Part shown: piece by piece, positions 39,589 through 48,945 of the stretch
Position numbering within the stretch: position 1 is the stretch's first letter
Layout of the letters: the number at the start of each line of letters is the position of its first letter
Source of the DNA: an uncultured Bacteroidia bacterium
GTDB lineage: Bacteria > Bacteroidota > Bacteroidia > Bacteroidales > UBA932
Assembly: GCA_902778105.1 (NCBI GenBank)
Contig: CACYWN010000018.1
Location: forward strand, 1 to 49,266
Direction of reading: 5' to 3'
Length of the DNA: 49,266 bases
Translations under genes and position numbers: made by a program
The notes under the pieces: model-generated
What the model was told of the DNA's origin: nothing
Database searches by the model: none
Seen by the model: the letters and a program-made list of their open reading frames with translations, nothing else

Positions 39589-40024
39589 AATTGTGTAAAA
39601 CGGTCTGTTTTGCACAATTACTCGCCGTTTTGGGCCGAGAACTGTGTGATAAGGTCCGATATACACAATTATTCGCCGTTTGGGTCGAAAACTGTGTGAT
39701 AAGGTCCGATATACACAGTTAGTCGCCGTTTGGGCCGAAAACTGTGAGATAAGGCTCGATATGCACAATTATTCGCCGTTTTGGGCCGAGAACTGTGTAA
39801 TAAGGCTCGATATACACAATTATTCGCCATTTGGGTCGAAAATTGTGTGATAAGGCTCGATATGCACAATTATTCGCCGTTTGGGCCGAAAACTGTGTGT
39901 GATAAGGCCAGATATGCACAATTATTCGCCGCTTGGGCCGAAAACTGTGTGATAAGGCCAGATATACACAATTACTCGCCATTTGGGCCGAAAACTGTGT
40001 GATAAGGCCCGATTCGCACTTTTG
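39589..40024. repeat. palindromic repeat array A (about 8.6 units of 50 bp)
   Basis: Units begin near 39589, 39640, 39690, 39740, 39791, 39841, 39891, 39943 and 39993 (last one partial). Each has AAYTGTGT, a 15-nt loop (type GATAAGGCCCGATAT) and ACACAATT, giving an 8-bp stem, then a 19-nt spacer containing TTCGCC...GGCCGAA, which can form a second, imperfect stem. Spacers are conserved between units, unlike CRISPR. The array lies between upp and the RAYT gene on the RAYT's upstream side. Confidence 0.92.
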
Positions 40025-40144
40025 TTTTCATAAAAAACGTAAAAACGCGTAAGAATCGTAAAAATCGACCTGAAACAACACCGAAACCCATTGTTTTCAG
40101 GCAGGGATTTCATAGGTTTGCCACAGAACGAATGATTCGTAGCG
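40025..40144. promoter_or_regulatory. RAYT promoter region with hairpin
   Basis: TTG at 40091-40093, spacer 19 nt, TAGGTTTG at 40113-40120: a canonical sigma-ABfr promoter, start near 40125, leader about 20 nt. A hairpin with arms CCTGAAACAA (40069-40078) and TTGTTTTCAGG (40091-40101) covers the -33 element and may be an operator. Confidence 0.65.
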
Positions 40145-41113
40145 ATGGAACAGTATGTCAAACAACCGCCGATGAATGAATGGCAAATCGAATGGATGCA
40201 GGAGCGTTTATTCCAGGAATCCGGTCCTTTTTATCACCTCAGCACGGAGCCACTTAAAGACGGAGTCATTTTTGAAAATGACGAAGAGCGGAAAGTGGCG
40301 ATGAACCTGATAGCCATCACGGCCCTGGAATTCCACGTCGACATTCTTGCTTACGCCTTGATGAGCAACCACTTTCATTTCATCGTCAAAGGAAAGTTGA
40401 TTGACGGCCTTTCCTTTTTCAAACAACTGAAGAAAAGGCTCTCAAACTATCTTTCGCGGCGTGGACGCGCAGGTGTCTTGGATTCTGTCCAGGTTGATCC
40501 CGATACACCGCCCATCGGGAGTTTGTCCCAACTCAGGAACGAGATTGCATACGTTATCCGCAATCCTTATGTGGTCCGGTTCGATGTAAACCCCCTAGCC
40601 TTCCCCTGGTGCAGTGGCTTTCTATATTTCAATCCGCTCTTACCCAGTCTCAGGACAAAAGAGCCGAAAGAACTGACATACAAGGAAAAACGGGAAATCA
40701 CCCGATCTCCCAATCCGGAACTGGATTCTCGATTCAGGATTCGTGACGGGATGATTGCACCGGAAAGTTTCGTGAATTACAAACTGGTGGAAAAGTTATT
40801 TCCCAACGCCGGCAAATTTGTCTGGTGGGTACTGAGGAATGTCGAAGCGCATCACGAGACCGCCACCAAAATGGGCGAACGCCCCAACTTGAACGATGAT
40901 GAGTTATTCGCAACAGCCCAGAAGATATGTCGGTCAGAATTCAGATTTGATGGAACGAAAGAACTTCCAGAGCGATACCGGAAAGATCTGGCCATCATTT
41001 TGAAAAACAAATACAGTGCTTCCAACGGTCAAGTCGCACGGATTGCCAAACTTGATCCGCGAATTGTAGACGATATGTTTCCCCTGACTTCAAAACGCAT
41101 CCGAAAACCGTGA
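40145..41113 (+). CDS. REP-associated tyrosine transposase (RAYT, Y1/HUH family)
   Basis: A 322-residue single-strand DNA transposase of the IS200/IS605-related Y1 family. The HUH motif is SNHFHFIV (H76, H78), and the nucleophile is probably Y136 in YVIRNP, matching the YxxxNP context of RAYTs. The last 150 residues are extra, helical and basic, ending in a possible helix-turn-helix (NGQVARIAKLDPRIVDDMF). It is flanked on both sides by palindromic repeat arrays; the downstream one starts on the base after its stop codon. RAYTs of this kind mobilise or maintain REP hairpins without being full insertion sequences. Intact, with its own promoter. Confidence 0.88.
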   Translation: MEQYVKQPPMNEWQIEWMQERLFQESGPFYHLSTEPLKDGVIFENDEERKVAMNLIAITALEFHVDILAYALMSNHFHFIVKGKLIDGLSFFKQLKKRLSNYLSRRGRAGVLDSVQVDPDTPPIGSLSQLRNEIAYVIRNPYVVRFDVNPLAFPWCSGFLYFNPLLPSLRTKEPKELTYKEKREITRSPNPELDSRFRIRDGMIAPESFVNYKLVEKLFPNAGKFVWWVLRNVEAHHETATKMGERPNLNDDELFATAQKICRSEFRFDGTKELPERYRKDLAIILKNKYSASNGQVARIAKLDPRIVDDMFPLTSKRIRKP

Positions 41114-41836
41114 AACTGTGTAGAACAGCTTGAATCAAACAATAATCAACCATGATGGACAAGAATTGTGTAGAGCGGCTCGAATTACACAATAATCAAT
41201 CATGATGGACAGGAACTGTGTAAAACTGCTCAAACCACACAATAATCAACCATAATGGACAAGAACTGTGTAAAACAGCTCGAATCACACAATTATCCTC
41301 CATGATGGACAGGAATTATCCTCCATGATGGACAGGAACTGTGTAAAACTGCTCAAACCACACAATAATCAACCATAATGGACAAGAATTGTGTAAAACA
41401 GCTCGAATCACACAATTATCCTCCATGATGGACAGGAATTGTGTAGAACGATTCGAATTACACAATAATCAATCATGATGGACAGGAACTGTGTAAAACT
41501 GCTCAAACCACACAATAATCAACCATGATGGACAAAAACTGTGTAAAACGGCTCGATTCACACAATTATCCTCCATGATGGACAAGAATTGTGTAAAACG
41601 GTACGAATCACACAATTATCCTCCATCATGGACAAGAACTGTGTAGAACGGCTCGAATCAAACAATTATCCTCCATCATGGACAAGAATTGTGTAAAACA
41701 GCTCAAACCACACAATAATCAACCATGATGGACAGGAATTGTGTAAAACGGCTCGGATCATACAATAATCAACCATAATGGACAAGAATTGTGTAAAACA
41801 GCTCGAATCACACAATTATCAACCATTTCAAGTGAT
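41114..41836. repeat. palindromic repeat array B (14 full units of 50 bp plus one truncated)
   Basis: Units begin at 41114, 41164, 41214, 41264, 41337, 41387 and every 50 bp to 41787; the period is exactly 50. At 41314 a 23-nt piece has lost its first 27 nt (the stem half and loop). Each unit: AAYTGTGT, 15 nt (type AAAACAGCTCGAATC), ACACAATT, then a spacer with a second small palindrome TCCATGATGGA or relatives. A degenerate unit follows near 41838-41866 and runs into the miaB promoter. Confidence 0.93.
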
Positions 41837-41871
41837 TATTGTGTCAAAACAAGAGTTTCACACATTTTTAT

Positions 41872-41879
41872 TACCTTTG
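41872..41879 (+). promoter_or_regulatory. sigma-ABfr -7 element for miaB-glpK-glpF
   Basis: TACCTTTG, 8 nt before the miaB ATG. The -33 zone is occupied by the last degenerate array unit and shows no good TTG. Confidence 0.6.
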
Positions 41880-41887
41880 TACTGCTT

Positions 41888-43207
41888 ATGAAGAAAGCCT
41901 ATATTGAAACATACGGGTGTCAGATGAACGTGAATGACACCGAGGTCATTTTTTCCATTCTGGCCAAGGAGGGATATGAGCGGACGGAGAACATGGAGGA
42001 AGCGGACCTGATCATGGCCAATACCTGCTCGGTGCGTGACAACGCGGAGCAGCGGATCTGGGGCCGGATCGAGCAGTTCAACCTGCAGCGGCGCAAGCGT
42101 CCGGGCGTGGTCGTGGGCATTGTGGGCTGTATGGCGGAACGCCTGAAGGACAAGTTGTTGGAAACGCGGAAGGTGGACCTGGTCGTCGGACCGGACGCCT
42201 ACCGTTCGCTGCCCCGGCTGCTAGAAGCCCTGAAACCGGAAGCCCCACAGATCGACGTGCTCCTTTCCCGGGATGAAACCTATGCGGACATTACGCCGGT
42301 GCGCACCGACAGGAACGGCGTCTCGGCCTTCATTTCCATCATGCGCGGCTGCAATAACGTCTGCTCGTACTGCGTGGTGCCGTACACCCGCGGTGTCGAG
42401 CGGTCGCGCGACCCGCATTCCATCGTCCGGGAGGCCTGTGACGTGTTCCAGAAGGGCTACAAGGAGGTGACACTGCTTGGGCAGAATGTGGACAGCTACC
42501 TGTGGAAATCGGCGGAGGAAACCGTGAACTTCGCGGAGCTGCTGCGGCGTGTGGCGTCCGTAAGCCCCGAACTCAGAGTCCGTTTCGCCACTTCGCACCC
42601 CAAGGACATCAGTGACGAGGTTATCGAGACGATGGCCGCGTACGACAACATTTGCAAGCACATCCATCTTCCCGTCCAGTCCGGCAGTTCCCGGATGCTG
42701 GAGAAGATGCGCCGGAAATACGACCGTGAATGGTATCTGGAACGGGTCCGCAAGATCCGCAGCGTGATGCCGGATTGCGGCCTGACGACCGATGTCATCG
42801 CCGGTTTCTGCTCCGAGACGGAGGAGGACCACCGGGAGACGCTGAGCCTCATGGAGGAGGTCGGCTTCGACTGGGCCTTCATGTTCGCCTATTCCGAACG
42901 CCCGGGCACCCTGGCGGCCCGGAATTATCCGGACGACGTCCCGCCGGCCACCAAGACGCGGCGGCTGAACGAGATCATCGACCTGCAGAACCGGAAATCC
43001 CTGGAGAGCTATCGCCGGGACATCGGCAAGCGCCTGCAGGTCCTCATCGAAGGCCCCTCCAAACGGAATCCCGACGATCTGTGCGGCCGCGCCTCCAACA
43101 GCAAGATGTGCGTATTCCCCGGTGGCGGACACCACACGGGCGAGTATGTGGACGTGGAGGTCGTGGACTGCACCAGTGCGACACTGATCTGTAAACTAAT
43201 CATATAA
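41888..43207 (+). CDS. miaB: tRNA-2-methylthio-N6-dimethylallyladenosine synthase
   Basis: A 439-residue radical SAM methylthiotransferase modifying A37 of tRNAs that read UNN codons. The N-terminal domain has three cluster cysteines, in [20 protein letters not shown] and VGCMAERL. The radical SAM motif is CNNVCSYC (CxxxCxxC) with VVPYTRG. GQNVDSY and the C-terminal TRAM domain follow. The start at 41888 begins the methylthiotransferase domain; an upstream in-frame ATG would translate repeat sequence. It precedes glpK by 2 nt, so the three genes to glpF look like one operon. Confidence 0.96.
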
Positions 43208-43209
43208 TT

Positions 43210-44682
43210 ATGGAAAAATACATTCTGGCCCTGGACCAGGGAACCAGCTCTTCCCGGGCCATCGTCTTCGACCATGAAGGCAACATCCGCTCTACCGCGC
43301 AGATGGAATTCACCCAGTATTTCCCAAAACCGGGCTGGGTGGAGCACAATCCGATGGAGATCTGGTCGTCCGAGGCGGCCGTCATTGCGGAGGCCATCAC
43401 CAAGATGGGCATCAACGGCTTGAACATCGCCGGTATCGGCATCACCAACCAGCGTGAAACGACCATCGTGTGGGATGCGGAAACCGGCGAGCCGGTCTAC
43501 AATGCCATCGTGTGGCAGGACCGCCGCACCTCCGGATTCTGCGACACCCTCCGCGACAAGGCGGAATGGATCCGGGAAAAGACGGGACTCATCATCGACG
43601 CCTATTTCTCCGGTACCAAGATCCGCTGGATCCTGGACAACGTTCCCGGCGCGCGGGAGAAGGCCGAGGCCGGCAAGCTCCGCTTCGGCACCGTGGACAG
43701 CTGGCTTGTCTGGCAGCTTACCCGCGGTGAGGTCCATGTGACCGACGTGTCCAATGCCTCCCGTACGATGTTGTTCAATATCAATACGTTGGAGTGGGAT
43801 CCCGAGCTACTGGCCTTGCTGGACATTCCTGCGTCCATGATGCCGTCCGTGCGCTCCAGCTCCGAGGTGTACGGCGTCACGAAGACGACCATTTTCGCCC
43901 ACGAAGTGCCCATCGGCGGCATCGCCGGCGACCAGCAGGCCGCCCTCTTCGGCCAGATGTGCACCGAGCCCGGCTCCGTGAAAAACACCTACGGCACCGG
44001 CTGCTTCCTCTTGATGAACACGGGTGAGAAGCCCATCCTTTCGAAGAACAACCTTCTCACCACCGTGGCCTGGAAGATCGGTGACAAGGTCAATTACGCC
44101 CTGGAAGGCTCCATCTTCGTGGGCGGTTCCGTCGTCCAATGGCTGCGGGACGGCCTGGGCATCATCCGGAGTTCCTCCGAGATAGAGGCCCTCGCCGAAA
44201 CGGTCCCGGACAACGGCGGTGTGTACTTCGTCCCGGCCCTTACGGGCATGGGCGCGCCCTATTGGGACCAGTATGCCCATGGCACCATCTGCGGCATCAC
44301 CCGCGGCACCACGGCGGCCCATATCGCCCGCGCGGCCCTCGAAGGCATCGCTTTCCAGACCATGGACATCGTGGGCGCGATGGAGAAGGATGCCGGCGTC
44401 CGCCTTTCCGAACTGAAGGTCGACGGCGGTGCATCCCGCAACAATCTCATGATGCAGTTCCAGGCCGATGTACTGGGCACGTCCGTCATCCGTCCGCAGG
44501 TCACCGAGACCACCGCCATGGGCGCCTGCTACCTCGCCGGCCTCGCCGTCGGGTACTGGAGCTCCCTGGACGAGATCAAGGCCCAGTGGCAGGCGGAGCG
44601 CGTGTTCAAGCCGTCCGGCACCGACACGACGCAGTTAAAGGCCGGCTGGGCCGATGCGATCGGACGGACGCTGAGCAAATAA
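43210..44682 (+). CDS. glpK: glycerol kinase
   Basis: A 490-residue FGGY-family kinase converting glycerol to sn-glycerol 3-phosphate with ATP. Seen are [17 protein letters not shown] (ATP loop), [13 protein letters not shown] (glycerol-binding), the [13 protein letters not shown] region and [22 protein letters not shown], with a conserved C-terminal [18 protein letters not shown]. The length is standard. It is followed by glpF, giving uptake plus trapping of glycerol. Confidence 0.96.
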
Positions 44683-44703
44683 ACAGAATCAAACCACCAA
44701 ACT

Positions 44704-45444
44704 ATGGAGAAAGCATACATTTTCGAATTCATCGGCACCCTGGTGCTCGTCCTTTTCGGTGACGGTGTGTGCGCCGCCACGTCCCTGAACAAGTCCAAAG
44801 CCAAGGGCGGCGGATGGGTGGTGATCGCCCTCGCTTGGGGCCTCGCCGTGATGATGGGCGTCCTTATCGCCGGCCCGGTTTCCGGTGCGCACCTGAACCC
44901 GGCCGTCACCCTGGGCCTCGCCATCGCCGGCAAGTTTGCCTGGACCCAAGTTCTCGGTTACATCATCGCCCAGATGCTGGGCGGCTTCGTGGGCGGCCTG
45001 CTGGTCTATGTGTTCTATAAGGACCATTATGCGGCCACGGCCGACGAGCCGGACACCATGCTCGGCACCTTCTGCACGATGCCTGCCATCTGGAATCCCT
45101 GGCGGAACTTCCTTTCCGAGTTCATTGCCACCTGCCTCCTGGTGTTCATCATCCTCGCCATCGGCTTCGAGGGGAACGCCTTCCAGGTAAGCGGTGCCGC
45201 CGCTTCCACCGGTGCCCTCGGCGCCTGGCCTGTTACCTGCCTGATCATGGCCCTGGGCATGTCCCTCGGCGGGACCACCGGCTACGCCATGAATCCCGCC
45301 CGCGACCTCTCCCCGCGCTGCGCGCACGCCGTCCTGCCCATCAAAGGCAAGCGCGACAGCGGCTGGTCCTACAGCTGGGTCCCCGTCGCCGGCCCGATGC
45401 TCGGCGCCTGCCTGGCCGCCGGCCTCTTCCTGCTGGTGTTCTAA
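44704..45444 (+). CDS. glpF: glycerol facilitator (aquaglyceroporin, MIP family)
   Basis: A 246-residue inner-membrane channel with six helices and two half-helices. Both NPA boxes are present: SGAHLNPAVTLG and GYAMNPARDLSPR. The Asp after the second NPAR is the mark of glycerol-conducting members. It passively conducts glycerol, which GlpK then phosphorylates. It lies 21 nt after glpK. Repeat cluster C starts 16 nt beyond its stop. Confidence 0.94.
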   Translation: MEKAYIFEFIGTLVLVLFGDGVCAATSLNKSKAKGGGWVVIALAWGLAVMMGVLIAGPVSGAHLNPAVTLGLAIAGKFAWTQVLGYIIAQMLGGFVGGLLVYVFYKDHYAATADEPDTMLGTFCTMPAIWNPWRNFLSEFIATCLLVFIILAIGFEGNAFQVSGAAASTGALGAWPVTCLIMALGMSLGGTTGYAMNPARDLSPRCAHAVLPIKGKRDSGWSYSWVPVAGPMLGACLAAGLFLLVF

Positions 45445-45460
45445 ATACTTGCGTACGAAA

Positions 45461-45593
45461 TAAGTGTAGAAAGGCCCGAATTACACAATTATCCTTCATT
45501 ATCGACGATAATTGTGTAATTCGGGTCGTATTGCACAATAACTGACCATAAACACAGGAAATTGTGCAGAAAGGGGCATTTCGCACACATTTT
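45461..45593. repeat. palindromic repeat cluster C (about 2.7 units)
   Basis: Three related units begin at 45461, 45510 and 45560, 49-50 bp apart, with the same stem (GTGT...ACACAATT, AATTGTGT...GCACAATA, AATTGTGC...GCACACAT) and loop core GGCCCGAAT. The spacer of the first unit contains ATTATCGACGATAAT, a perfect 7-1-7 palindrome. It is more diverged than arrays A and B and lies between glpF and the convergent rpoN. Confidence 0.85.
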
Positions 45594-48108: not shown

Positions 48109-48945
48109 GCAATTTTCTCAGAGAATATCATAAAACCGAGCGAGGGAGGCAAGGAGGCACGCGTAAGGTCTGAGTCTGGGCAAGGTCTGCCAGACTTCGG
48201 GCAAGGTCTGCATTTGCGTTGCCTTCCTGTTGCCTTCCCGAGCGGCCGTATTTGCATTGCCTCTCCGTCCGGCCGCATTTGCGGCAAATCGTGCTTCTAC
48301 GCCGTTCCGCCTGCCGACGCGTCCGCTAAAATGGCCTTTTAAGCGGAAAACGGTGCCGCGTCTGCACGCAGAAGCACCTCTGTGGCCTTTTTTCCGCATT
48401 TGCGGCGCAGAGATGGTGATGATGAGAAGGTACCAGTGAGATGGCCGAGGTGGTGAGATGGTCAATGAGGTGGTGAGATGGTCAATGAGATGGTGAGCTT
48501 GGCATGGCCTGAGTCTGGGCATGGTCTGAATGGTATTTGGGCGGAGTCTGTTTTTAAGTGACAGACCATGCCCATGGTTTATGCCATACAGTTGGCTGGA
48601 AGGCCGATCCGGCGGGCAAGGTCTGCGTCCTCAAATCAGACTATGCCCTAAAAGTGCGCAGATCTTGCTCGAATTCTTTCAGACCCTGCCCCCCAAAAGC
48701 GCGGCTCTTTTCATTGGAAAAATCGACTAGCGCCAGAATAATTCTTACGATCCACCGGAAACAGAAAAGAATCGGGCAAGAAAAGCATAATCCGGGCAAG
48801 AATCATAAAAAACTGCACCGGCCGCTTTGCACGATGTCTTTTGCTTCCGTAGCTTTGTTCCGGCCGGTCCTTGTGCAACAGGGCCCGAGGGGATGATTTT
48901 CGGACCGGCCTTCTTCTCCGGAAGGCCCGGAATACATCTTTAGCC
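48109..48945. other. long repeat-rich non-coding region
   Basis: No gene is supported on either strand. The box GGGCAWGGTCTG recurs near 48178, 48199, 48517 and 48614 and inverted at 48562-48573. A 23-bp segment containing CTGAGTCTGGGCA is repeated at 48167-48189 and 48506-48528. AGGTGGTGAGATGGTCAATG is tandem at 48448-48487, with a third partial copy. Nested inverted repeats lie at 48291-48377, and a 9-bp inverted repeat GGCCGGTCC/GGACCGGCC at 48862-48870 and 48902-48910. Confidence 0.5.

Follow-up and report, generated by a model that had tools for sequence, protein, structure and literature searches.

RAYT genes bracketed by REPs, BIMEs that lie next to RAYTs and REP families that belong to one enzyme each are already known (parts of PMC2817692 and PMC6006769). 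The TnpAREP proteins studied in PMC8266576 rely, in the portions of that paper drawn on here, on a GTAG foot for binding or for site choice. Two of the described TnpAREP subclasses are relevant to the Bacteroidales locus presented below. Subclass 2.1 comprises long proteins with HTH-like C-terminal tails and, within the sections of PMC6006769 that bear on it, has no REP-like sequences near its genes. Subclass 2.6, of the Bacteroidetes, is given in the same sections with a median length of 179, the motif YIH[QN]NP, atypical secondary structures and copies elsewhere in the genome (PMC6006769). A sequence-only reading of the locus had described the REPs of gammaproteobacteria as scattered singles or pairs; this background is partly wrong, as BIME clusters beside RAYTs are known there (PMC2817692, in part).

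The RAYT gene, its arrays and its protein

The window, i.e. the whole stretch of 49,266 nt analysed here, comes from an uncultured Bacteroidia bacterium and carries, as the sequence-only reading had it, an intact RAYT-type HUH/Y1 ORF with H76, H78 and Y136 (40145..41113, + strand, 322 aa). Upstream of it lies an array of nine palindromic units (39589..40021, + strand), each of 31 nt with a spacer of about 19 nt. The units start at 39589, 39640, 39690, 39740, 39791, 39841, 39891, 39943 and, for the last and degenerate one, 39993, in steps of 50-52. The downstream array (41114..41867, + strand) has 15 units, the first directly 3' of the stop codon and the last degenerate; starts run from 41114 to 41837 in steps of 50, with a single exception of 73. 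The hairpin scan of the window tolerated up to 3 stem mismatches; its counts of 9 and 15 agree with the approximate numbers claimed before, and both arrays are also detected by TRF. Inside the downstream array TRF further reports a tandem duplication of 123 bp (41201..41440, + strand, 99% matching), which is a local amplification. A third hairpin cluster (45462..45592, no strand assigned) lies between glpF and rpoN and holds three hairpins at a step of about 50 bp, two from the mismatch scan and one more from the covariance model. Its middle hairpin scores on either strand (29.6 bits on +, 27.1 bits on -).

The period of 50 bp claimed for the units stands, with steps of 50-52 apart from the one of 73, and the claimed 15 nt do separate the arms in 22 of the 24 units (17 in one, 13 in one); their description as a loop fares less well. 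The consensus of 29 hand-chosen, aligned hairpins (23 from elsewhere in the source genome, from UBA3289 and from G017; 6 from the window) is AATTGTGTAAAACGGCCnGnTnTACACAATT, a near-complete 31-nt palindrome, which makes the supposed loop resemble an inner stem that has weakened. Across the 29 hairpins the outer pairs are formed in 91.3% of cells and the inner pairs in 57.5%. The covariation score of the window family (0.183) is above the mean of the shuffles (0.149), and 23 of 500 shuffles reach 0.183. In the same family the count of pairs changed on both sides (reached by 172 of 500 shuffles) and the number of pair types (reached by 252 of 500) are unremarkable. The window family has modest covariation, which bears out the pairing only in part. 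At the feet of 66 hairpins GTAG occurs three times, GTGG never and CGTC five times, and GGGG, counted as a plain word rather than as GGGGWSAS, is near the feet of two. A universal GTAG foot is absent from the hairpins of the genus, and an assignment to GTAG- or CGTC-tagged REPs was rejected on these tag counts.

Upstream of the RAYT ORF stands TAGGTTTG (40113..40120, + strand), which we take to be a candidate Bacteroidota-type -7 promoter element. The 220 nt that precede the gene contain TAnnTTTG in 46 of 143 RAYTs, the downstream side in 22 of 143. The leader at window positions 40030-40120 has, by eye, CGTAAAAATC-like words that recur 5' of some RAYT genes; CTGAAACAAC in the leader is found upstream of 8 of the 143 RAYTs and downstream of none, and RAYT leaders often also have TATGTTTG-like elements close to the gene start. 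Elsewhere in the window TRF reports a 20-bp short tandem repeat (48436-48497) that is unlike the hairpins. A CRISPR array was rejected because the whole 50-bp unit repeats, spacer included, which leaves no unique spacers; a defence system was rejected as well, with no match from PADLOC.

The protein was modelled with AlphaFold2 from the window sequence and 14 relatives (mean pLDDT 86.5, pTM 0.69). The identification as a RAYT, proposed from the sequence, holds in the fold: among PDB structures the model comes closest to 4er8, in which the E. coli RAYT is in complex with a REP hairpin (probability 1.00, E 2.1e-3; TM 0.64 when scaled by target length, 0.35 by query length). IS608 TnpA ranks next and ISDra2 TnpA lower down. 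E never falls below 0.001 in this search of PDB folds. As 147 columns are aligned to the PDB match, the common core takes in less than half of the model. In its C-terminal half the model consists of helices and ends in an HTH-like part, with helices at 276-290, 294-300 and 305-311; matches to HTH HMMs are weak only. The window RAYT stays under the cut-offs of Y1_Tnp (PF01797; 19.9 versus 23 bits) and of NF047646 (REP_Tyr_transpos; 23.5 versus 80 bits), and Y1_Tnp is touched at E<=0.1 by 18 of 30 family members. H76, H78 and Y136 are conserved in 141 of 143 RAYTs. The set is incomplete in just two, L012 (G000:C14), where part of the HUH motif is lost, and L130 (G008:C23), which is short at 223 aa. 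For the Y---NP signature the window protein has YVIRNP, with N140 kept in 139 of 143 and P141 in 53 of 143.

A RAYT family widespread in the genus, often with private palindromes and a common step

RAYT matches in the source genome number 15 by single-sequence search and 16 by profile, 15 of these being listed. Within the genus, 33 of 37 genomes have RAYT matches, from 0 to 16 per genome and 193 in the summed table. The scan of genome contigs used a closer alignment, A3, the profile from A2 being too divergent. An order-wide survey covered 198 genomes from 150 genera, with the best 11 candidates or fewer scored per genome; among the candidates scored, near-full-length profile matches occur in 2 of the 198 genomes, both of the source genus, and the other 31 genomes with matches at E<=1e-10 have partial profile coverage only. 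All 14 of the best named records are MAGs, from Bacteroidales or Bacteroidia, and several of their titles say ruminant gut. A virus-borne origin was rejected: 26 viral-contig stretches fit a pattern and none of them encodes a relative. The source genome has no near-identical copies of the window RAYT, the nearest being 52% identical, and its closest RAYT pair, among the pairs listed, is 66.6% identical. An orthologue of the window RAYT, 69% identical, is present in UBA3289. In the same genome a RAYT gene nearest to L015 is split in two frames (L293), through decay of the copy or an error in sequencing.

For the comparison of flanks 149 ORFs were taken, reduced to 145 by dropping repeats of one sequence or ORFs under 200 aa and to 143 with long enough flanks; some of these loci are orthologues, and the 143 do not count as independent. 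In the flanks read, many paralogues are bracketed on both sides by palindromes that differ between paralogues. An exact palindromic arm of at least 7 nt is common to a gene's own two flanks in 32 of 102 loci and to 0.46% of 10,302 mismatched pairs. For exact arms of at least 8 nt the figures are 36 of 143 loci versus 26 of 20,306 mismatched pairs, leaving 107 of 143 loci with no such arm in common between their own flanks. Local alignment of own flanks beats the 99th percentile of mismatched flanks in 84 of 143 loci and the 99.9th in 69, against a background of 5,720 mismatched pairs, 40 per locus. The 59 loci that fail the 99th percentile do so through decay, distance or absence of matching flanks. 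By these comparisons, between about half and three fifths of the 143 loci have matching flanks.

The sharing of palindromes varies with protein identity. Arms of at least 8 nt are common to different RAYTs in 17 of 10,103 pairs below 60% identity, in 5 of 39 pairs at 60-75% and in 6 of 11 pairs above 75%; that few are shared below 60% is partly because the exact-arm test is insensitive. AATTGTGT is common to the flanks of the window RAYT and of its UBA3289 orthologue, at 69% identity. L191, a 60% relative of the window RAYT, has a different stem by eye, and the palindromes of L011 and L287, 52.6% identical, differ as well. The proposal that the window enzyme recognises the window hairpin and has built or maintains its arrays is supported in part, namely for the tie of gene and hairpin: own flanks match and copies lie elsewhere. 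It is too narrow in scope, the association being widespread in the genus and made with different palindromes.

Unrelated palindromes mostly have a common step. In a self-lag test (flanks of 200-400 nt, lags of 20-149 nt, strong when a score of 14 is reached), strong self-lag is found in 118 of 285 RAYT flanks versus 17 of 266 control stretches. Of the strong RAYT lags 38 are at 51, 35 at 52, four at 50 and four at 53, together 81, and the remaining 37 fall elsewhere, some near double the 51-52 step. Two of the 17 control lags are within 50-53 (one at 51, one at 52). Over 65 flanks, with lags restricted to 40-61 and with automatic, rough hairpin lengths, the hairpin length averages 32.5 (SD 6.0) and the step 51.3 (SD 1.0), with r -0.09. 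As unrelated palindromes have one step, slippage alone is insufficient, and either a ruler set by the enzyme or a constrained ancestral spacing is needed. The rule does not extend to every member: the flanks of the L019 RAYT (G000:C26) have tandem repeats of 22 bp and 37 bp in place of a period of 51-52. Downstream of the + strand RAYT L017 (G000:C3) are 51-bp repeats that resemble a coding repeat in units of 17 residues. This 51-bp signal is likely a false positive of the period test, and since a coding repeat can mimic the hairpin period, period alone is an unsafe guide.

A ruler set by the protein, with the 50-53 step of about five helical turns as its measure, is a tentative proposal, to which we give about one chance in three. 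RAYTs with an HTH-like end would bind neighbouring hairpins in phase, excise and insert one exact unit at a time and in this way write the arrays, and the specificity of enzyme for hairpin would switch at about 60-75% identity. If this is true, the enzyme-hairpin pairs would form a natural series for decoding recognition by HUH enzymes.

Copies without the gene and history of the locus

A whole-genome search with a covariance model, which the sequence-only reading had proposed, does find the hairpin outside the window. The model of the window hairpin (R1) was applied with at most the best 150 candidates scored per genome. In the source genome, where 582 candidates were available, these best 150 give at least 42 sites at E<=1 with strands merged, at least 25 in the window and at least 17 at no fewer than nine other places; at E<=0.01 at least 11 sites, in at least six places, are outside the window. 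When the nine outside loci are re-searched internally, seven hold two or more hairpins in steps of about 50, and an eighth has further hairpins by eye. Some gene-free clusters come after gene ends, again by eye. At L071 (G000:C43), positions 265-640 contain a tandem duplication of about 234 bp that takes in a hairpin cluster.

Gene-free copies were sought for two palindromes, those of the window family and of the L011 family. The L011 palindrome has 12 sites at up to 3 mismatches, four adjoining the gene and eight elsewhere, versus 0 for the reversed-pattern control. Six of the eight distant sites form 52-bp doublets (C23:13663/13715, C3:5023/5075 and C7:80506/80558), and two sites of this palindrome have the paired change GATGG/CCATC to GACGG/CCGTC.

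Co-occurrence of gene and hairpin in relatives, the point on which the sequence-only reading had offered to be refuted, is mixed. R1 matches at E<=0.01 in at least 6 of the 37 genus genomes, namely the source genome, G017 and, with a lone weak site apiece, G013, G016, G018 and G036 (E 2e-4 to 2.4e-3), the weak lone matches being excluded as cognate copies. UBA3289 has at least four R1 sites at E<=1 after strand merging, and more by scan. On the favourable side is G003, a near relative whose best match to the window RAYT is 29% identical while its MiaB is 94% identical; it has no RAYT orthologue and, among the R1 candidates scored, no window hairpin at E<=0.01. On the other side is G017 (95% complete), which has the window hairpin in at least three sites at two places. 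Flanks were read for four of its five RAYT matches, the nearest 47% identical, and none of the four is bracketed by the window hairpin, so the G017 copies look like orphans. This result speaks against a strict one-to-one link between RAYT and hairpin.

The same relatives allow the locus to be followed in part. G003 has the order rpoN-miaB-glpK-glpF, then upp-radC-oadA oppositely oriented; only 2 nt separate its rpoN stop from its miaB start, an empty site, and the covariance model finds zero hairpins at E<=5 in this stretch of G003. UBA3289 has the gene order of G003 plus the RAYT between rpoN and miaB, with one hairpin before the RAYT and three after by eye; the scan recovers two of the latter. 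Its glpF-upp gap holds three hairpins by eye, two of them also by model. Relative to UBA3289, the block RAYT-miaB-glpK-glpF in the window (40053..45444, + strand) is inverted: this segment aligns reversed and its outer sides both align forward. Hairpins lie at both junctions of the inversion in both genomes, the rpoN-RAYT hairpin of UBA3289 by eye only. Empty site and inversion are each seen in one genome, in MAGs where assembly errors are possible.

Array sizes also differ between close relatives. The window family has 9+15 units in the source genome versus 1+3 (by eye) in UBA3289. In the L009/L286 pair (92.5% identical) it is UBA3289 that has the longer downstream array, with 13 forward arms in exact 51-bp steps versus two near the gene in the source genome; upstream there are two forward and three reverse arms in the source genome versus one forward and one reverse in UBA3289. 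Arrays, as compared in these genomes, appear to lengthen in different lineages. With polarity drawn from one genome, the simplest order of events would have the RAYT unit insert first, then a gene-free cluster spread, then inversion occur between clusters and lastly the arrays grow.

Explanations and comparison with known systems

The reading that we hold to be probable is that of a REPtron, in which an IS200-like endonuclease, the RAYT, has been domesticated and has a non-autonomous family of hairpins to itself. It would belong to a long-RAYT radiation, found here in one Bacteroidales genus, in which each enzyme would act on, spread and amplify its own hairpins and seed rearrangements. Binding, cutting and rejoining by the RAYT are most likely, as we infer from family and fold; array expansion and segment inversion appear in the sequence as outcomes rather than as reactions. 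The RAYT would bind its own palindrome. Its target would probably be the hairpin that a single strand forms during replication, or alternatively a dyad, bound with help from the C-terminal HTH-like end. Tyr136 would cut and rejoin beside the palindrome and so mobilise units of one or two hairpins, and this movement would place copies elsewhere and extend arrays by whole units. Slippage or ordinary recombination would then lengthen the arrays, and pairs of clusters could seed inversions of segments.

The palindromes may instead be passive and delimit a mobile gene unit as TIRs do, with arrays made by slippage or unequal recombination and the enzyme irrelevant to the step. This account, which is compatible with the main reading, seems unlikely to us, though it is the strongest of the alternatives. 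The block of 123 bp duplicated at 99% is in keeping with it, slippage preserves exact steps in an existing array, the common step may descend from an ancestral array, and TIR-flanked relatives (TIRYT) are described in part of PMC3733652. It accounts poorly for unrelated palindromes that repeat at a 50-53 step, for a hairpin length that does not track that step and for clusters that lack the gene and have the same step.

We consider it rather improbable that the palindromes are operators and the RAYT now a repressor or nucleoid protein, bound to double-stranded dyads every five or so helical turns, with mobility in its past. HUH and Tyr are retained in all but two of the 143 RAYTs, close relatives differ in array length and G003 has an empty site, although the palindromes are near-full dyads, 51-52 bp is by arithmetic about five B-DNA turns, the C-terminal end has weak HTH matches and the arrays adjoin the gene closely. 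Transcription terminators or mRNA-stabilising hairpins clustered by chance are already disfavoured and very improbable. The start of the downstream array straight after the stop codon would suit them, as would the gene-free clusters that trail gene ends (by eye). The upstream array, however, precedes the candidate promoter, the spacers after units are without T runs and own flanks match far better than the flanks of other RAYTs.

The genus sample gives 193 RAYT matches, about half of the 143 tested loci have a readable, palindrome-bearing pair of flanks, and close relatives differ in array length, presence and orientation. This puts recognition, growth of arrays and inversion linked to REPs within reach of direct tests, and REP-type arrays are extended far beyond gammaproteobacteria. 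In the open-licence papers searched, no description of such a RAYT-array variant was found.

Compared with IS200/IS605 TnpA, the HUH/Y1 core is alike; the proteins here have a long C-terminal region and no near-identical copies. Like the RAYT/TnpAREP systems of E. coli, Pseudomonas and Stenotrophomonas, as far as the parts of the literature used here describe them, the system combines an HUH/Y1 enzyme, a gene flanked by palindromes, gene-free copies and a REP family of its own. Unlike known RAYT/TnpAREP, the RAYTs of the genus are about 300 aa long with an extra C-terminal region and reach up to 16 matches per genome, and their hairpins have no universal GTAG foot, a step mostly of 50-53 bp and up to 15 units on one side. 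With subclass 2.1 and TIRYT they have in common a long protein, and their C-terminal end, with its weak HTH matches, may correspond to the HTH-like tail there; palindromes are common here, unlike in 2.1 as portrayed in the sections cited. Subclass 2.6 is of the same phylum and resembles the system in having atypical structures with further genomic copies, with a median of 179 aa and YIH[QN]NP in those sections versus 322 aa and YVIRNP for the window protein. Since subclass 2.1 is there without REPs and 2.6 has short proteins, we class the system, by description, as a RAYT/REP variant outside the named subclasses. The RAYT/REP kind is already known; the variant, its scale and its step appear to be new.
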